Part shown: in pieces, positions 28,744-54,864 of the stretch
Layout of the letters: every line of letters starts with the position of its first letter
Position numbering within the stretch: the first letter of the stretch is position 1
Origin: Synechococcus sp. C9
Lineage (GTDB): Bacteria > Cyanobacteriota > Cyanobacteriia > Gloeomargaritales > Gloeomargaritaceae
Length of the DNA: 64,000 bases
Direction: 5' to 3'
Assembly (NCBI RefSeq): GCF_022984075.1
Contig: NZ_JALAAD010000001.1
Span: forward strand, 744,001-808,000
Translations under genes and position numbers: made by a program
The notes under the pieces: generated by a model
What the model was told of the DNA's origin: nothing
Database searches by the model: none
What the model saw: only the letters and a program-made list of their open reading frames with translations

Positions 28744-29830
28744 CAGTAGTGTTGAATGTTAACGAAAGGGTGGAAAAGGGAGACTAAAAATGGTATTTTA
28801 GATTGGTAGAAACCACGAGTAACAGTATTTTTATGAGACGACAAATTCAGGGACTTATCAAGCCCTTGCTGAACCTTCTTCCCAAAAACGACTATCCAGT
28901 CTTGGATACTCGCTTGTTTGTACTCATATGGATGCACTTCATTTTAGATGCAAGAGTCGCCACCATGCGGGGCTTATTCTTCCTCTTGAATCATCTCAAT
29001 TTTAAAGTTGACATATCAACGTTTTCTAAGGCGTGTAAACATCGTAGCACCGAGCCGTTTCAAGTGATCCTAAGAGAACTGCAAAAACGGCTTAAACATC
29101 ATCAAGGTGAATTTAAGCACTTATTCCCATTAGATTCTACCATTATCACCCTGACCAGCAAATTATTCTGGCACTACAAGCAGGTAAAATTGACGCTTGG
29201 CCTGGATATAAATGAGGGCAATATCGGTGACGAATCAATTATATTTGGAAAGACTAATGACCATAAAATTGGGCATCTTGTGATTGGGACGATACCTGAG
29301 AATGCCGTTGGTATCATGGATAGGGGTTTTGCTTCCTGGAAATTAATGGACGAAATGTGTAAACGAAATACATTGTTTATTGTGCGGATTAGAAATAATA
29401 TGAAGTTGCAACCTGACAATCCGGATATTCGGGTAATTCAATTTTTTAATGAAGAGGAAAACACAGAATATAGGCTAGCGACTAACGTGACTTCGATGAC
29501 GGATGAAGAGATTTGTTCAGCCTATCGTTTGCGCTGGCGAATTGAGTTGCTTTGGAAGGCACTAAAGATGCACTTGAAATTGGATAGAATCATTACCAAG
29601 AATGAGAATGGTGTGCGGCTACAGATTTATGCCGTATTGATTGGTTATCTAATTTTAAGATTGCTGGAGATAGGTCACAATAAGACCTATGAATTGATTG
29701 ACAAGTTGCGATATTTACAAATAGAAATAGGCCGACACTGTAGCTTCATGGAACTCGTAGGGGTAGAGCCGCTCGTAGGATAACCCTGACCCCTTATGTT
29801 AAGTTTTATTACGGACATTCAACACTACTG
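28744..29830 (+). mobile_element. IS4-family insertion sequence, copy 2 (1087 bp)
   Basis: It has the same 16-bp perfect ends (CAGTAGTGTTGAATGT and complement), the same length and the same encoded transposase as the copy at 17316-18402. The target duplication here is GCCCCACCC (28735-28743 and 29831-29839), different from that of copy 1, so both arose by transposition rather than segmental duplication. Confidence 0.95.
28803..29783 (+). CDS. IS4-family transposase, copy 2
   Basis: The product of 326 residues is identical to that of copy 1, with Asp in FPLDSTIITL, Asp in GIMDRGFASW and the YREK signature in YRLRWRIELLWKALK. It is intact. It is oriented opposite to the stress-protein gene it interrupts, whereas copy 1 has the same orientation as its host gene. 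Confidence 0.93.
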   Translation: MVETTSNSIFMRRQIQGLIKPLLNLLPKNDYPVLDTRLFVLIWMHFILDARVATMRGLFFLLNHLNFKVDISTFSKACKHRSTEPFQVILRELQKRLKHHQGEFKHLFPLDSTIITLTSKLFWHYKQVKLTLGLDINEGNIGDESIIFGKTNDHKIGHLVIGTIPENAVGIMDRGFASWKLMDEMCKRNTLFIVRIRNNMKLQPDNPDIRVIQFFNEEENTEYRLATNVTSMTDEEICSAYRLRWRIELLWKALKMHLKLDRIITKNENGVRLQIYAVLIGYLILRLLEIGHNKTYELIDKLRYLQIEIGRHCSFMELVGVEPLVG

Positions 29831-30127
29831 GCCCCACCCGTACCAAATGGGTGACATTCATCCCTTGTGTCTCTAGGGTGGTTTGGACTGCATTCAGCCA
29901 GGTTGCCGCCGGGCCGGCCTCCGGTTCGGTAGGAACCACCACCAACAGGGTCAAACTCGCCCCGCAAAATTTCACCAGCGCCAGGGCAACTTCTTGGGGG
30001 TCTTGGTTTTGGTCAAGAGCCAACAGGACTTTGTGAAACATAGGGGTATGGGTGGCCTTTCGCCAGTACAATGGAGTACGGATATGGATACATCAATAAT
30101 TATTCCAGATTTTGGTGGAGGTACCCT

Positions 30128-31360
30128 GTGGCAAAAAAATCGGTGGCCAGTCTGACGGCCCAGGACCTGGAAGGCAAACGGGTGCTGGTGCGGGTGGATT
30201 TTAATGTGCCTTTGGACAAGGAACAGCAGATTACCGATGATACCCGGGTGCGGGCGGCTCTGCCAACGATCAATTATTTGCGGGAACGGGGGGCACGGGT
30301 GGTGCTGTGTAGCCATCTGGGGCGACCCTTCAAAAAGGATAAAACCACTGGCGAGGTGAAATTAGTTAAAGAGGGGAATAGCCTGGCGCCCGTGGCGGCT
30401 CGGTTGGGAGAGTTATTGGGGACGCCGGTGCAGTTTGTCCCGGATTGCATTGGGGAGGTGGCCACCCAAATGGTGCAGGGTTTGCAGAATGGGCAGGTGG
30501 CCCTGCTGGAAAATGTGCGTTTTTATGCAGAAGAGGAAGCCAACGACCCGGAATTTGCCAAAAAATTAGCGAGTTTGGCCGATCTCTACGTGAATGATGC
30601 CTTTGGGACGGCGCACCGGGCCCACGCCTCCACCGAAGGAGTGACCCGTTATCTCAAGCCCGCAGTGGCAGGGTTTTTGATTGAGAAAGAATTGCAGTAT
30701 CTCCAGGGGGCGATTGACCAGCCCCGCAGGCCTTTGGCGGCGATTATCGGTGGTTCCAAGGTGTCCAGTAAAATTGGCGTGATCGAGGCGCTTTTGGACA
30801 AGGTGGACAAGCTGATCCTGGGCGGAGGGATGATTTTCACCTTTTACCAGGCTCAGGGGTTGAGCGTCGGCAAATCCCTGGTGGAAACGGACAAGCTGGA
30901 TTTGGCCCAGAGCCTCCTGGCCAAGGCGAGGGAGCGGGGGGTGGAATTGGTACTGCCGACGGATGTGGTGGTGGCGGACAAATTTGCCCCGGATGCCCAA
31001 GCCCAGACCGTGCCGGTGACGGCGATTCCCGAGGAATGGATGGGGTTGGATATTGGCCCTGCCGCCATTGCCCAGATTCAGCAAGCCCTCCAGGGGTGTC
31101 AGACGGTGATCTGGAATGGGCCGATGGGGGTGTTTGAATTTGACCAGTTTGCCGTGGGGACCCGGGCGGTGGCGACAACCTTGGCGGACTTGACCGACCA
31201 GGGCTGTACCACGATCATTGGCGGGGGGGACTCGGTGGCCGCCGTGGAGCAGGCGGGGTTGGGGGAACGGATGAGCCATATTTCCACCGGGGGGGGTGCC
31301 AGTTTGGAACTCCTGGAGGGGAAAATCTTGCCTGGGATTGCCGCCCTGGAAAACGCATAG
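30128..31360 (+). CDS. pgk: Phosphoglycerate kinase
   Basis: Pgk interconverts 1,3-bisphosphoglycerate and 3-phosphoglycerate in glycolysis and the Calvin cycle. The 410-residue product (GTG at 30128) has the family signature [18 protein letters not shown], the substrate-binding [26 protein letters not shown], the [11 protein letters not shown] segment and the ATP-site [10 protein letters not shown] and [13 protein letters not shown]. The frame is open 19 codons upstream, but the GTG matches the usual N-terminus ([18 protein letters not shown]). Confidence 0.97.
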
Positions 31361-31426: not shown

Positions 31427-34258
31427 ATGGACAACATCGAATGTTCCAATCCCAATTGCTATAGCCTGAATCCTGAGACCAACCGGTTTTGTCAGGTCTG
31501 TGGTGCGCCCTTGGAGTTTGTGTTTCTGTGGGTGACCGGCGACCCGTTGGTGGGGGTGGAATTGGAACGTCCCTACCAGGAACGGTATCGCCTGCGGGGG
31601 CCAAATTTACTGCTAGATTTGCAACCGGGTCGTCAGCCGGTGAGTTTGGATACGATTCCGGTGGAGGCGCAACCCTACCTGCGGTTGTTTCCGTTCCGGC
31701 TCCATTTGCCCCAAGTGCAGGCGGTGATCCCGGTGGGGGGACAACCCCGGTTGGTCTTGAGCCAAGTCCCCCTGCTCCCGGAGGAGTACGGCACCCGCAT
31801 CCCCCCCCTCAAACCCGTGCAATCTTTTGGGAAAGCCTGGGCGGAAGCGACGGGGTTTCGCCAGTTGAGTTGGCTGTGGCAAATTGCCCGTCTGTGGCCG
31901 ATCCTGAGCTACCAACAGGTGGCGGGGAGTTTACTCCGACCCCAGCTTTTACGGGTGGAAGGGCCGGTGTTCCGCCTGCGGGAATTGGTGCAGGATGGGG
32001 AACAGACGACCCTGGCTCAGTTGGGGGAGTTTTTATCCCGTCTGGTGCCCACCACCCAACCGGCGGTGCGGGGCTTGGTCAAGCAGGTGTGCGAGGGGAT
32101 GATCCAACAGCAAATCACCAGCGGGGAAGAACTGGCGCAACAGTTGGACCGGGGGTTGGATGAGTTTCGTCATACCTGGAATGGGCAGGTGAGTGTGGTG
32201 GCCTTGACCGACCCCGGCCCGACCCGTCGCCGCAATGAGGATGCGTGCTATCCGGCTCCCCACCAGGGTTCCCGCCTGAGCGGTACCGATGGACTGCCCT
32301 TTGCGATTGTCTGTGATGGCATCGGCGGCCATGAGGGGGGGGATATGGCCTCCAACCTGGCGATTGAAACCATCAGCCAGCAACTCAATCCCCGGGTGTT
32401 GGCCAAGGTGGATACCAAGGTGGTGACCGAGGAATTGGCCATGATTGTCTGCAATGCCAACGACCGGATTACCCAGGTGAATAACCAACAGCAACGCCAG
32501 GAGCGGCAACGCATGGGCACCACCCTGACCATGACCCTCCTGCGGGATTACGAAGTGTTTTTGGCTAATGTGGGGGACAGTCGCATTTACTGGGTCACCC
32601 GTTATGGCTGTTATCAAGTCACCACGGATGATGATGTGGCCTCCCGGGAGGTGCGGTTGGGGTATAGCCTCTACCCCCAGGCCTTGAAACAACCGGCGGC
32701 GGGAGCTTTGGTGCAGGCGTTGGGGATCAATTCCTCGGGTCTGCTTCACCCCACCATCCAGCGGTTTCCTTTGGATGAGGACAGTGTCTTTTTGCTCTGT
32801 TCCGATGGGTTAAGCGACAACAATTTGGTGGATCAGTATTGGCAGTTGGAACTGTTGCCCGTCCTCACGGGGGAGGTGGATTTACCCACGGCCACCCAAC
32901 GGTTGATTGACCTGGCGAACCAAAAAAATGGCCACGATAACGTGACGGTGGTGCTGATTCATTACCAGGTGGCTCCTGCCAAAACTGCCCCGGTGAATGG
33001 CCGTCCCCTGTCTGTACCAGAGCCATCCCCTACCCAAGGCCAGCGGGGAGCGATTCCCCCACCCCCGGAACCAATCACCAAAGGCCGCCGGGGAGCCGTT
33101 CCCAGTCCCGCTGAACCAATCACCCAAGGTCGGCGGGGAGCGATTCCCCCACCCTCAATTCCCCCTTTGCGGAGCCAAACCGCCCTGCCGCCATCTAGCG
33201 CCCGCCCCAAACCCCTGCCCTTGGCCCTGCTCCTGGTGGGATTGGTGGTTGGCTTATTGACCCTGGCCGCCGGGGGTTGGTTGTGGTGGCAGGAAAACCG
33301 CCAGCGGGATAACCCCCTTTTCTTGGTCAGTAGTCCTACACCCCCGGATTTTCAACCCACCCTGACGCTTCCCAAATTTAATGGTTATGTGAATACCCTC
33401 GCCATCAATGCCCAGGGCAATCAATTGGCGATTGGGAGCGAAGATGGCAGTATCAGTCTCTGGCAACTGCCGGGGGGGCAATCCCAGGGATTTTTGCGCC
33501 GGAGTGGGGTCTCCGTCATGGGGGTCACGTTTATCCGCAATGGGCAACAATTGGCGAGCTTTGACCGGAGCAGTCTGGAACTGTGGGGGGTCAACGATGG
33601 TCGGCGCATTGGGGAACTGGTCGGGCCGAGGGGGGTGGTGACGGCCATGGCGACCAATGGTACCGGGCAATTTCTGGCCGTGGGGGATGCCAACGGGGAG
33701 GTCTATCTATGGGATTTGAACCTAGCCGGTGCCCCGAGTTTTCGCCAGCAACTCCCGGAATTGGGCAAAATTGATGCCCTTGCCCTCAGCCCCGATGGGA
33801 CGCTTTTAGCCGCCGCCAGCCAGGGTCAACAGGTGGTGGAACTCTGGGATGTGCCCAACCGCACCCGCAAATTCACCCTTACCCGCCCGGATTTGCGTCA
33901 CGGCATCTGGTCCCTCAGCTTTCGCCCCGATGGGCAGGTATTAGCCAGCGGCGGTGGGGATGGCAAGGTGTCCCTGTGGAACCCCGGCAGTGGGGCGTGG
34001 TTGAAAACCCTCCAGGCACCGGGGATTGTTTACAGCCTGGTCTTTAGCCCCGACAATGCCCTGCTGTTTAGCGGCACCGGCACGACTTCCCCTGATAGCC
34101 GGGTGATCACCGTCTGGAACCCCGCCAAGGGCACGGCACTGCAAGTCCTCAAGAACCATCAGGAGGCGGTCAAAGCCCTCGCCATCACCCCCAACGGTCG
34201 TCTGCTGGTTTCCGGGGGGTTGGACAACCAGGCGATCCTTTGGCAAAGCCCTCAGTAA
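31427..34258 (+). CDS. Zinc-ribbon PP2C phosphatase with transmembrane segment and WD40 domain
   Basis: The 943-residue protein has five parts in order. An N-terminal zinc ribbon has C6, C11, C22 and C25. A cyanobacterial-specific region follows. The PP2C Ser/Thr phosphatase (~255-510) has metal ligands in RRNEDACYPAP, IVCDGIGGHEGGD, ANVGDSRIYWV, LLCSDGLSDN and GHDNVTVVLI. A proline-rich linker contains three 15-residue repeats (RRGAIPPPPEPITKG type). One membrane span (ALLLVGLVVGLLTLAAGGWL) precedes a C-terminal WD40 propeller of about six to seven blades (SPDGTLLAAASQGQQVVELW, LASGGGDGKVSLW). With a single span the propeller would be outside the cytoplasm. PP2C enzymes reverse Ser/Thr kinases; this fusion suggests a phosphatase tuned by an external ligand, which is inference. 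Confidence 0.85.
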   Translation: MDNIECSNPNCYSLNPETNRFCQVCGAPLEFVFLWVTGDPLVGVELERPYQERYRLRGPNLLLDLQPGRQPVSLDTIPVEAQPYLRLFPFRLHLPQVQAVIPVGGQPRLVLSQVPLLPEEYGTRIPPLKPVQSFGKAWAEATGFRQLSWLWQIARLWPILSYQQVAGSLLRPQLLRVEGPVFRLRELVQDGEQTTLAQLGEFLSRLVPTTQPAVRGLVKQVCEGMIQQQITSGEELAQQLDRGLDEFRHTWNGQVSVVALTDPGPTRRRNEDACYPAPHQGSRLSGTDGLPFAIVCDGIGGHEGGDMASNLAIETISQQLNPRVLAKVDTKVVTEELAMIVCNANDRITQVNNQQQRQERQRMGTTLTMTLLRDYEVFLANVGDSRIYWVTRYGCYQVTTDDDVASREVRLGYSLYPQALKQPAAGALVQALGINSSGLLHPTIQRFPLDEDSVFLLCSDGLSDNNLVDQYWQLELLPVLTGEVDLPTATQRLIDLANQKNGHDNVTVVLIHYQVAPAKTAPVNGRPLSVPEPSPTQGQRGAIPPPPEPITKGRRGAVPSPAEPITQGRRGAIPPPSIPPLRSQTALPPSSARPKPLPLALLLVGLVVGLLTLAAGGWLWWQENRQRDNPLFLVSSPTPPDFQPTLTLPKFNGYVNTLAINAQGNQLAIGSEDGSISLWQLPGGQSQGFLRRSGVSVMGVTFIRNGQQLASFDRSSLELWGVNDGRRIGELVGPRGVVTAMATNGTGQFLAVGDANGEVYLWDLNLAGAPSFRQQLPELGKIDALALSPDGTLLAAASQGQQVVELWDVPNRTRKFTLTRPDLRHGIWSLSFRPDGQVLASGGGDGKVSLWNPGSGAWLKTLQAPGIVYSLVFSPDNALLFSGTGTTSPDSRVITVWNPAKGTALQVLKNHQEAVKALAITPNGRLLVSGGLDNQAILWQSPQ

Positions 34259-34441: not shown

Positions 34442-35791
34442 TTACCTGGTTACTTGGTTATGAAATAACTGGCGAAAGTGATCCCCCCGGGCTTCAAAAT
34501 TGGGGTACTGGTCAAAACTGGCGCAGGCAGGGGAGAGCAAAATCACTTTGGCACCCGTTTCTTGCGCTAATTGTTGCGCCGCCGGTATGGCTTCAGCTAA
34601 ATTTTCTACCCTCAAAAAAGGGGTATAGTTAACACTCATTAATCGTTGGGCAAAACTCTCTGCCGCCGCCCCGAATAATACTACCCCAACCGCTCGCTTT
34701 TGAATGGTCTGCAACCAGTGCCAATCGTCGCCAATTTTCGCTTGCCCCCCTGCCAGTAAAATAGTCGGCTCAGTCATACTGGCTAAACCTACTTGAGCGG
34801 CATCATAATTGGTGGCTTTGCTGTCATTAATATAAGTGATTCCCTGATGCATCCCCAGTACTTCTAAACGGTGGGGCACCCCAGGAAATTGACGCATCGC
34901 CTGGGTGATGATTTCGGGAGGAATTTTCAAGACATGAGCAACGGCAATGGCTAGGAGTAAATTTTGGCGATTATGATTCCCCGGCATCGGGAAATTTTCT
35001 AAGCTAAAAATAGCCCTATCTTCAACCATCACTTGCCCATCTTGCACATAAATACCAGGTTTTTCAGAGGGGGGTAACGCATCATATCCTTGGGTGCTTG
35101 TCCAAATTATATCCGCCCACCGTTGAGCAAAATTTGCCCGTAGATAGGGGTCATCCCCATTCAGAATTTTGATCTGGGATTGAGATAATAAATGGGCTTT
35201 AATTCGACAATAATTTTCCAGGGTATAATGACGATCCAAATGGTCGGGTGTAAACGTTGTCCATACCCCAATGTGTGGGGCAATTTGCGGAGATGATTCA
35301 ATCTGAAAACTGCTGATTTCCGCCACAATCCAGTCCACCTCTTGCCCCACCAAATCACAGGCAGGTGTGCCGATATTGCCACAGGCCGGTGCCCGATAAC
35401 CCGCCTCCTGCAAAATGGCGGCAACGAGGCTGGTCGTTGTGGTTTTACCATTGGTGCCGGTGATCCCCACCCACGGATAAGTACAAAGACTGCGCCAGGC
35501 TAGTCCCATTTCTCCGACCACATCAATCCCCTGTGCCCGCAGTTGTTGCAAAATCGGCACATCCCAAGGCACCCCCGGACTGACCACCACCAACTCCGGC
35601 GGGGGTTCCGGCGGGGCAAAGGGTTGTCCAAGATGGATGGTCATCCCCAGGGCTTCCAAATTGGCTTTTTGCTGGGTTAATGACAGAGAAATGGAACTAT
35701 CTTGTACTGCAACCTGCCACCCCTGCCGGTGGAGCAAATGAGCCGCCGCCAACCCCGATTTCCCTAACCCCAAAACCAATGCCTGACCCAT
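34442..35791 (-). CDS. murD: UDP-N-acetylmuramoylalanine--D-glutamate ligase
   Basis: MurD adds D-glutamate to UDP-MurNAc-L-Ala during peptidoglycan synthesis. The 449-residue protein has an N-terminal Rossmann domain (ALVLGLGKSGLAAAHLLHRQ), the ATP-binding GITGTNGKTTTTSLVAAIL, the ligase-family FTPDHLDRH and NDSKATNYDA, and the C-terminal ILLSPACASFDQYPNFEARG. The start codon overlaps the glyS stop by one base (TGATG), so the two are coupled. Confidence 0.96.
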   Translation of the reverse strand: MGQALVLGLGKSGLAAAHLLHRQGWQVAVQDSSISLSLTQQKANLEALGMTIHLGQPFAPPEPPPELVVVSPGVPWDVPILQQLRAQGIDVVGEMGLAWRSLCTYPWVGITGTNGKTTTTSLVAAILQEAGYRAPACGNIGTPACDLVGQEVDWIVAEISSFQIESSPQIAPHIGVWTTFTPDHLDRHYTLENYCRIKAHLLSQSQIKILNGDDPYLRANFAQRWADIIWTSTQGYDALPPSEKPGIYVQDGQVMVEDRAIFSLENFPMPGNHNRQNLLLAIAVAHVLKIPPEIITQAMRQFPGVPHRLEVLGMHQGITYINDSKATNYDAAQVGLASMTEPTILLAGGQAKIGDDWHWLQTIQKRAVGVVLFGAAAESFAQRLMSVNYTPFLRVENLAEAIPAAQQLAQETGAKVILLSPACASFDQYPNFEARGDHFRQLFHNQVTR

Positions 35792-37917
35792 CAGCTTTTC
35801 ACAATTTGCGAGAAATCCGCCAGCACTAGGGCACTGTTGCGAATTAAGCCCAGTAAATTCAGGCGATTTTGGCGAATGGCAGGGTTTTCATCCATGACTA
35901 AAACGCTTTCGGAACCATCAAAAAATCGTTCTAAAATTGGCGCAATTTCCTGGAGTTTTTCAATTAAACCGTCATAGTCGCCCGTGCATTTAGTGGCTTG
36001 AGTTTGGGTGAGTAATTGATTCACCGCTTGATAGAGTTCCCGCTCAATGGGTGCCTGTAACCATTGGGGTTCAATGAGCTTTTCGGCACTTAATTCTGAG
36101 GTGGATAGGGTGCCTTGATAGGCCAAACGAGTAGCACGATTCACCGTGGCATAGATGGTTTGCAAAATCCCATTCGCTCGTAAATTCATTAACTTTTCAG
36201 CCCGGTCAAATAAATCTTGGACATTGGTCAAAATTCGTTCCGTAACTTCTGGATTTTCTGAACCCAAGAGTGCATTAATTAAATCATAGTCTAGCCCTTT
36301 TTCCTGCAAAATTGTATGTAACCTTTGGGTGACTAAGCTATACCAATGACGTTGCAGTTCTACATCATTGAATTGGGGAAAATCCTCCCTTAAAATAGCT
36401 ACCATTTCTTGAAATAACTGTTGTAAATTCAGGGGATAGGTGGGATAAATCGCCGCCGTGATCATTAGGATATTGCGTACCGCCCGCCGGAGGGCAAAGG
36501 GGTCTGAGGAACCCGTAGGAATTAACCCCACCGCCAAAATTCCCACCACCGTATCCAACCGATCCACAAGCGCAACCCATTGTCCGTTCAAGGTCGTTGG
36601 TACATCCTGATAATGCTCACGAATCCCTTGTGCCACCACCGGTGATTCTCCGGTTTTTAGGGCATAATCCCCCCCCATGATGCCCTGCAATTCGCTGAAT
36701 TCCCCCACCATTTGCGTGACCAAATCGGCTTTGCACAAATGGGCTGTGCGGAGAATCTGTTGAATTTCCTCGCTTGGATAATCGGTAACCGCTAAAATTT
36801 TGGTCAACAGTTTTTCAATGCGGTGGACTTTCGCCAGCACCGAACCCAATTGTTCCTGAAAGGTCACATTTGCTAATTGGGGGACATAGGCAGCTAAGGG
36901 TTGGCGTAAATCTGTTTCATAGAAAAATTGGGCATCCGCCAAACGAGCCTTGAGTACCCGTTCATTCCCCCGCCGAATCGTCGCTTCATACTGGGCATGA
37001 CCATTACTAATGGTGACAAAATTGGGTAACAATTCCCCTTGGGCATTTAATACGGGAAAATACCGCTGGTGTTGGGTCATCACGGTGGTAATGACGGGGG
37101 CAGGCAGATGCAAATAGAGCGGGTCAAAGGTTCCCAAAATCCCACTTGGCCATTCCACCAATTGGGTGACTTCTGTTAATAAATTGGTGGGACTTGCCGC
37201 CTGACTGTGGGGGGGCACGACCCGCTGGAGTTCCTGCTGAATTTTGGCTTGCCGGATGGGCACATCGGGTTCCACCCCCGCCTGCCGCAGACAATCTAAG
37301 TACATCCCTGCTTGGGGAATGGTGACTGGCTCAGGATGCAACACCCGATGGCCGTAGCTGATTCGGTCGCCATGCAACTGTTCGGAACCGTTCGTCAAGG
37401 TCACGGGCACCACCTGTTCCCCCCAAAGTGCTAGCAACCAACGGATGGGGCGGCTAAATTTCACGGGGCCATCCCCCCAACGCATGAACCGACGACCCGT
37501 CAACCCCTGCCACCATTGGGGAATCAGTTCCGCCAAGACCTGGGGGGCAGGACGACCACCAATGGTTTGGACGAGGTACACAAATTCACCCTTGGGGGTC
37601 TCGCGCCGTTCCACCTGGCTAAGTTCCGCCTGACGGGAACGCAAAAATCCCAACAGCGCTGGGGTCGGTTCGCCGTCTCGATAGGCCGCTTGCACGGCAG
37701 GGCCTTTCACTTCGACCCGTTGTTCGGGCTGATGGTCGGGTACGCCGGTCAACTGTACCGCCAACCGCCGGGGGGTGCCGTAGTAAGCAATCCCTTGGGG
37801 CACCAAATCCACCGCCGCCAAGGTGCTGGGGATGGTTTCCTGCCACTGCGCTAAGGCTCCGGTAATAAAATCGGCGGGCAGTTCTTCCGTGCCCAATTCC
37901 CAAATAAAATCCGTCAT
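35791..37917 (-). CDS. glyS: Glycyl-tRNA synthetase beta subunit
   Basis: The beta subunit binds tRNA-Gly in the alpha2beta2 bacterial-type enzyme. The 708-residue product begins MTDFIWELGTEELPADFITG and has the family segments GPAVQAAYRDGEPTPAL, MRWGDGPVKFSRPIRWLLAL, FPVLNAQGELLPNFVTISNG, and the C-terminal anticodon-binding HD-like part with GSSDPFALRRAVRNIL. The alpha subunit gene is not in this window. It is followed by murD with a one-base overlap. Confidence 0.96.
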   Translation of the reverse strand: MTDFIWELGTEELPADFITGALAQWQETIPSTLAAVDLVPQGIAYYGTPRRLAVQLTGVPDHQPEQRVEVKGPAVQAAYRDGEPTPALLGFLRSRQAELSQVERRETPKGEFVYLVQTIGGRPAPQVLAELIPQWWQGLTGRRFMRWGDGPVKFSRPIRWLLALWGEQVVPVTLTNGSEQLHGDRISYGHRVLHPEPVTIPQAGMYLDCLRQAGVEPDVPIRQAKIQQELQRVVPPHSQAASPTNLLTEVTQLVEWPSGILGTFDPLYLHLPAPVITTVMTQHQRYFPVLNAQGELLPNFVTISNGHAQYEATIRRGNERVLKARLADAQFFYETDLRQPLAAYVPQLANVTFQEQLGSVLAKVHRIEKLLTKILAVTDYPSEEIQQILRTAHLCKADLVTQMVGEFSELQGIMGGDYALKTGESPVVAQGIREHYQDVPTTLNGQWVALVDRLDTVVGILAVGLIPTGSSDPFALRRAVRNILMITAAIYPTYPLNLQQLFQEMVAILREDFPQFNDVELQRHWYSLVTQRLHTILQEKGLDYDLINALLGSENPEVTERILTNVQDLFDRAEKLMNLRANGILQTIYATVNRATRLAYQGTLSTSELSAEKLIEPQWLQAPIERELYQAVNQLLTQTQATKCTGDYDGLIEKLQEIAPILERFFDGSESVLVMDENPAIRQNRLNLLGLIRNSALVLADFSQIVKS

Positions 37918-53497: not shown

Positions 53498-54864
53498 TCA
53501 GCGCAGGGCTTGGCGCAACCATTGGGTCAGGGTAAGGATGCCCACCGTGACCAACCCCAGGATCACCGACCCCAAGCCCAGGCGGAACCACGCCCCAGGC
53601 ACCAACCACGCCAACAGGATAAAATTCATCACCCACAGCCCCGCCAACCAGGGAATTTGCAACCAGGTGCGCCCCCAAAACCACACCCACCCCCCCAGGA
53701 GCAAACCAAACAGGATACTGATCCCCACCGGTGCGCCCAGTTTGACCACCGCCGCCATCACCCACAACCCCATCACCGCCGCAATCAAAAAAATTTGTCC
53801 CAGAACCACTTCCAGGGCAGGGCGAGCTTGGGGCACGGGCAGGGGACGGACCACCGGCACAATCGGGGCCGGCTGGAGGGGTGCCGAAGGGGGGCGCAGG
53901 GGTTTGGAATTGGGGGGCAATTGCACCCGCCGGGGGAGTTGTTGCAACTGCTCCAGCACCTCCGCCGCACTGGTAAACCGCTCCTGTACCACCAAGCGCA
54001 CCATCCGATCCAAAATCTGGGTGAGGTGGGGACTCAGGTGCACCTTGTCCCGCCATTGCCACGTCCCCATGTAGGCATCGTACAAATCCTCCGGCGGCAA
54101 CCCGGTCAACAGCCGCAAACAGGTCACCCCCAGTCCGTACAAATCCGTGGAGGGGTACACTTCCCCGCCGTGATATTGCTCCGGGGCGGCATAGCCCGTC
54201 GTCCCCACCGTTGTCCATTTAGATGTGGCAAACAAATCCCGCACCGCCCCAAAATCCAACAGATAAATTTTGCCCTGGCGATGGCGCATGATATTCGCCG
54301 GTTTAATATCCCGATGGATGATATTGCGCCCGTGGACAAATTGCAAAATCGGCAGGAGGGCTTTGAGTAACTCGATAATTTTGGTTTCATCGAAGGGACC
54401 CAAGCGTTGCAATTCATGTTCCAAATCCTCCCCGTCAATATATTCCTGCACCAAGTAAAAATGCTCTTGGGTTTCGTGGGGATAGCTGATTTTGGGCACC
54501 GTTAAGGGGAAATAGGCATACAAATCCGGGATAGCAGGGTGGTCATTCCCCACTTTTGTAACACCGTCGCTTCCCGGGCAAACAACCGCCGTGCCATCGC
54601 TATTTCTTCCGCATTCATCCCATCCGGGCGAAAGTGTTTGACCACGCAATGTTCCATGTTGGGCAGGTAGCGGTCAATGGCGAGAAACGTCGCCCCAAAC
54701 CCCCCCCGTCCCAAGGGTTTAACCGGTACATAAGCCCCCGCCAAAATCAAGGGCATCTGGCAGGCACGGCAGTGGATTTGCTCAATACTGCGGAGTTGCT
54801 CCTCATCAATGTCCACCCGATTCAGCGGGGCAGGACAACCAGGGCGGGTACAATATAAATCCAT
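53498..54864 (-). pseudogene. Ser/Thr protein kinase with one frameshift
   Basis: The 5' frame (54864 to about 54550) starts MDLYCTRPGCPAPLNRVDID with a zinc-ribbon head, then the glycine loop LGRGGFGATFLAIDR and VVKHF. It runs out of frame at FAREATVLQK. The 3' frame resumes at VGNDHPAIPDLYAYFP and carries HRDIKPANIM, DFGAVRD, APEQ and a C-terminal block of about five membrane spans. One missing base in the run CAAAAGTGGGGAAT near 54548-54558 explains the break; with it the protein would be 455 residues. It could be a sequencing error, a real mutation or recoding. All other motifs are intact. Confidence 0.85.

Follow-up and report, generated by a model that had tools for sequence, protein, structure and literature searches.

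A receptor-like PP2C phosphatase of Gloeomargaritaceae with a predicted pseudokinase domain and a predicted extracytoplasmic WD40 propeller

To our knowledge, the phosphatases that oppose the many Ser/Thr kinases of cyanobacteria, and the control of these phosphatases, are mostly unknown. One gene in a window of 64,000 nucleotides (the whole stretch of DNA analysed here) from Synechococcus sp. C9, a Gloeomargaritaceae cyanobacterium with a genome of 2.96 Mb, raises the question of whether a protein phosphatase has been joined across a membrane to an outer receptor domain. The open reading frame (31427-34258, + strand) is intact and complete, with an ATG start, 943 aa and a stop codon at its end, and six further Gloeomargaritaceae genomes keep it intact too, with 50-90% identity. 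According to sequence inspection, Pfam, Kyte-Doolittle analysis and AlphaFold, it encodes a 4-Cys prefix, a putative pseudokinase, a PP2C phosphatase, a proline-rich linker, one transmembrane helix and a WD40 propeller, an architecture that is kept in relatives. The original prediction of a PP2C domain, a proline-rich linker, one span and WD40 blades in a single chain is therefore upheld. With a probability of roughly 0.6, the gene product is a single-pass, receptor-like protein phosphatase with an exchangeable outer domain, whose usual small two-Cys outer tail was replaced once by a seven-bladed propeller in Gloeomargaritaceae and which works by the mechanism proposed below.

The protein begins with a zinc-ribbon-like 4-Cys prefix (residues 6-29 with C6, C11, C22 and C25; 31442-31513, +). 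A zinc ribbon had been predicted here, and the four cysteines indeed show conservation of 90% or more across 62 relatives, but the score against the NCBIfam model NF045510 straddles the cut-off of 24 (24.5 bits for residues 1-515 alone, 23.5 bits for the full protein), and the model matches 28 of the 62 relatives. The prefix may be a zinc or thiol-redox module of the kind common to cyanobacterial 4-Cys kinases; the thioredoxin targets of Synechocystis include the Cys-rich extension of SpkB (PMC10651672). The PP2C domain (residues 257-515; 32195-32971, +) yields a Pfam PP2C_2 match of 5e-14 over residues 271-470, and its closest solved structures are those of tPphA (2j82/5iti; E about 2e-25). 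When aligned to tPphA, the metal motifs RNED, DGIGGH (DGxGG), GDSR, SDGL (SDG) and DN are all present, including the metal-binding Asp motifs of Group I, tPphA-like PP2C/PPM phosphatases, and their key residues are invariant in the 62 relatives. Judging by these motifs, the domain is apparently active. It is followed by a proline-rich, positively charged linker with GRRGA(V/I)P repeats (residues 518-596; 32978-33214, +), i.e. ~80 residues that are disordered in the model.

Residues 28-256 (31508-32194, +), lying between prefix and phosphatase, were overlooked in the original prediction, yet the region at about residues 30-250 is a domain and no mere spacer, and we conclude from structural more than from sequence evidence that it is probably a pseudokinase. 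Folded alone by AF2 with a 62-sequence alignment, it gives a model of high confidence (pLDDT 92.7, pTM 0.89) with a bilobal kinase fold. The best Foldseek match in the PDB is the Rv3910 pseudokinase of Mycobacterium tuberculosis (3otv; E 7.7e-4, probability 1.00), the best 50 matches listed are all kinase-fold structures, and a second aligner, VIA, returns Z of 10.6-11.0 over about 165-188 residues, with 1000/1000 re-aligned chains at Z of at least 5 and 977/1000 at Z of at least 8. The catalytic positions are lost: the Asp of HRD is Leu or Val in 62/62 sequences (hhalign register), and in motif alignments by eye, in which the register is less certain than for HRD, the beta3 Lys position is Asp in 61/62 and the DFG position reads (L/R)EL. 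Comparison with Hanks kinases by hhalign is weak, with P 0.024 at the alphaE/catalytic loop, in register, and P 0.049 at the C-terminal helices (reversed control 0.11), so that it is the predicted fold that carries the assignment. The domain could also be an unrelated alpha/beta adaptor, kinase-like in outline only, as Pfam and PDB sequence searches as well as family and profile searches with residues 28-256 gave no match and the hhalign similarity is not significant once the 4-Cys prefix is left out. We consider this improbable in view of the confident model, of Foldseek and VIA lists made up of kinase folds and headed by a known bacterial pseudokinase, of two locally aligned segments in the correct order and register, and of a position directly after the 4-Cys prefix that matches that of the kinase domains in 4-Cys kinases.

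A similar weighing applies to the orientation of the protein in the membrane. Topology prediction finds the one span that had been anticipated (about residues 597-620; 33215-33286, +), with a Kyte-Doolittle score of 2.58 at 597-615, an AlphaFold helix at 600-628 and a position that is conserved in 46 relatives; in one ortholog (L009), the span is weaker (1.29). Lys and Arg residues flanking the span average 3.76 on the N-terminal side versus 1.65 on the C-terminal side in these 46 relatives, the N-terminal side having more in 40 and fewer in 3. The protein has no N-terminal signal, and cysteines number 0-1 in propeller-bearing tails versus 10-14 in the cytoplasmic part. Most family tails that lack a propeller have precisely two Cys, a number that fits a disulfide in an exported domain. 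Two 4-Cys kinase-WD40 proteins of the same genome (L066 and L067; genome C1:2047721 and C1:1280264) show no convincing span, the lone window above the span threshold in L066 falling inside a propeller blade, and the propellers of both contain several Cys. Charge bias, the scarcity of Cys outside and these Cys-bearing, span-free proteins together support a predicted topology with PP2C inside and the propeller outside, as originally proposed, which corresponds to a receptor-type layout of cytoplasmic PP2C, single transmembrane helix and extracytoplasmic C-terminal domain. Were the hydrophobic segment membrane-associated or re-entrant instead, the WD40 domain would be cytoplasmic and work like the two kinase-WD40 proteins, whose own seemingly cytoplasmic location speaks for such an arrangement, as does the ortholog with a weak span. 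This arrangement nevertheless appears very unlikely, since almost every one of the 46 relatives has one strong span in the corresponding position, the charge bias is 40 to 3, Cys are nearly absent after the span compared with the kinase-WD40 propellers, and the tails of other members mostly have two Cys.

The propeller itself (residues 643-940; 33353-34246, +), predicted to be extracytoplasmic, matches Pfam WD40 at 1.6e-36, with five repeats reported over residues 650-940. Structure modelling agrees with the predicted span and blades: AlphaFold places a helix at the span position and builds a complete seven-blade fold (AF2 pLDDT about 90) that, according to Foldseek, resembles 5yzv and 7big, with a TM-score of 0.92 to the latter, a seven-bladed designed propeller. 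The full-length AlphaFold model was made with a 7-sequence alignment and has a pLDDT of 62, and relative domain placement is not to be read from it. Identity to the sister genus is 35% in the propeller versus 63% in the cytoplasmic part, suggesting that the propeller evolves faster. Sensor domains often diverge fast. While the 35% identity could suggest separate propeller gains in the two genera, the propeller tree unites the phosphatase propellers in one clade (99/98), apart from the genome's other WD40 proteins. Derivation from a kinase-WD40 protein such as L066 or L067 or from a ribbon-TM-WD40 protein of the same genomes is unsupported, the clades being separate. The latter protein (L168:1501-2655; genome C1:270643-271797) has 385 aa with a zinc-ribbon-like start, one transmembrane helix, a WD40 propeller and no catalytic domain; it occurs in those seven Gloeomargaritaceae genomes that also have the phosphatase and may be a co-receptor or another propeller in the periplasm.

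The predicted architecture is real, but it is no case of a phosphatase freshly attached to a membrane receptor: the 4-Cys/PP2C/span core belongs to a cyanobacteria-wide family, and it is the outer tail that has been exchanged. Of the 388 cyanobacterial genomes sampled, 287 contain the core, comprising 4-Cys prefix, pseudokinase, PP2C, linker and span (E 1e-80 or better); the putative pseudokinase is a common property of this phosphatase family, which most cyanobacteria have. Outside Gloeomargaritaceae, open frames of the family mostly measure 590-890 aa, and in the inspected loci the span is mostly followed by roughly 130-240 residues with two Cys or by very little, some members having only 15-40 residues. 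The two-Cys tail appears weakly SH3b-like; among the non-WD40 relatives scanned, L025 alone gave an SH3_3 match after the transmembrane helix (E 0.0018, below the cut-off). None of the inspected loci outside Gloeomargaritaceae, the longest and nearest included, encodes WD40 after the span. The WD40-bearing form occurs in 7/8 Gloeomargaritaceae genomes from two genera, the eighth being an 83% complete draft, and is limited to Gloeomargaritaceae among 96 PP2C ORF instances, some of which represent a gene already counted, as well as in the 388-genome class survey, which was made by open-frame length. Its suspected rarity is thus supported among the surveyed cyanobacterial genomes, and no published description was found. 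A seeming second PP2C-WD40 protein in Stenomitos (L112, query span 3-941) turned out to be two genes, the first encoding an NB-ARC-like WD40 protein and the second an ordinary member of the family.

In the core tree, the Gloeomargaritaceae proteins form one clade (100/100) inside a group dominated by two-Cys-tailed proteins, within which the tree gives no firm branching order. This one core clade and the one propeller clade support a single replacement or fusion event that probably preceded the split of the two sampled genera. Given a pre-existing core family and a propeller found only in Gloeomargaritaceae, the architecture is best described as a single exchange of the ectodomain of a receptor-like phosphatase, restricted to this lineage. 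In several divergent members, namely L223, L225 and L226 (f14), L224 and L231 (f12) and L227, L232 and L233 (f23), a simple pattern detected no 4-Cys prefix, and these members may mark an older state of the family.

In the gene neighbourhood, no conserved functional neighbour was found. The phosphoglycerate kinase gene pgk (30071-31360, +), immediately upstream and given as context only, is the one constant neighbour, but it is so only within Gloeomargaritaceae (7/7 loci) and was rejected as a conserved operon partner, being absent from all checked flanks of other relatives. Another nearby gene, glyS (window 35791-37917, -), also adjoins the family gene in Stenomitos (L112), and GlyS is phosphorylated by SpkB. 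The adjacency is not kept even within the genus, however (e.g. 1.09 Mb vs 2.53 Mb in G002), and the link to glyS was therefore rejected. Elsewhere in the window, a transposase-like ORF (28803-29783, +) lies between the purD-like and pgk genes, and an ORF at 53951-54478 (-), whose kinase-domain match begins only at position 67 of PF00069, may be a truncated kinase or have a wrong start.

Several known systems share parts of this plan. The closest is the cyanobacterial 4-Cys PP2C family, with PRK14559/NF011149 ('serine/threonine phosphatase') as the nearest NCBIfam model, which shares the ribbon, the pseudokinase-like region, the PP2C domain, the linker and the span; identity to its closest members is 43-53% over the first 515 residues, and the PRK14559 score is 268 bits, under the curated cut-off of 374. 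Other members of this family end in a two-Cys tail or nothing, whereas the propeller is found in Gloeomargaritaceae only. PstP of M. tuberculosis combines a cytoplasmic PP2C, one transmembrane helix and an extracytoplasmic C-terminal domain. Such receptor phosphatases have the same layout as the Gloeomargaritaceae protein, a likeness of plan rather than of demonstrated descent, and PstP is not known to carry a 4-Cys ribbon, a pseudokinase or a WD40 propeller. L066 and L067 likewise carry an N-terminal 4-Cys prefix and a C-terminal seven-bladed propeller, and the bacterial WD40 kinase PkwA also has its propeller C-terminal to the kinase; yet these bacterial WD40 kinases have an active kinase in place of pseudokinase and PP2C, and L066 and L067 have no transmembrane helix. 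WD40-kinase fusions are well known (PMC5587647, PMC1262709). The main text of a systematic survey of WD40 proteins in prokaryotes leaves phosphatases unmentioned (PMC5587647). The Rv3910/MviN pseudokinase (3otv, 3ouk) is also an intracellular kinase fold within a membrane protein and, once phosphorylated by PknB, a docking site bound by FhaA (PMC3601408), but it is joined to a peptidoglycan-synthesis membrane protein instead of a phosphatase. Finally, Pseudomonas kinase and PP2C fusions hold both domains in one chain (PMC1262709), with PP2C first, a kinase not described as degenerate and no span-propeller part. Chains that join PP2C to an outer domain through a span are known in principle, from PstP, and chains combining WD40 with a kinase or a kinase with PP2C are known as well; in the literature searched, no description turned up of the pseudokinase-PP2C-TM-WD40 combination or of any bacterial PP2C-WD40 protein.

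How might such a protein work? In the likeliest mechanism, the propeller would sit in the periplasm (or thylakoid lumen) and bind a partner protein, an envelope component or another copy of itself, thereby clustering or positioning the protein, and the flexible linker and span would relay this outer binding to the cytoplasmic PP2C, which would then cluster or be located differently. Such outside-in control is plausible as a hypothesis. The dead kinase domain would not phosphorylate anything but could tether the phosphatase to kinases of the Hanks type or to substrates of these kinases; alternatively, it could provide a phosphorylation-controlled regulatory surface, with the 4-Cys ribbon acting as the zinc or thiol-redox module. 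As ribbon and pseudokinase resemble the front half of 4-Cys kinases, this analogy suggests docking to, or redox co-regulation with, 4-Cys Hanks kinases as their likeliest role. A more far-reaching and decidedly tentative proposal is that pseudokinase-phosphatase receptors bring PP2C to 4-Cys Hanks kinases under redox and envelope control throughout cyanobacteria, and that the periplasmic propeller has rewired the envelope input in Gloeomargaritaceae.

Alternatively, the propeller may be a scaffold and not a sensor, constitutively anchoring the phosphatase to an envelope or thylakoid protein complex while its activity stays independent of any ligand. Propellers of the WD40 type are classical platforms for the docking of proteins, an 80-residue disordered linker would be a poor relay of conformational change, and members with a span and just 15-40 residues beyond it imply that the ectodomain is dispensable for core function. 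Nevertheless, a pure anchor seems rather unlikely, though far from negligible, because the exchange of two-Cys tails, propeller or nothing on one core and the fast divergence of the propeller are both patterns commoner in input modules.

About three in four of the sampled cyanobacterial genomes encode a member of this phosphatase family, which combines predicted membrane attachment with a kinase-type Cys prefix and an unannotated putative pseudokinase. Its Gloeomargaritaceae form indicates that the outer input domain is exchangeable, and the partner of the folded propeller could be isolated directly. If true, the pseudokinase-phosphatase receptor would constitute a one-protein counterpart to receptor kinases.
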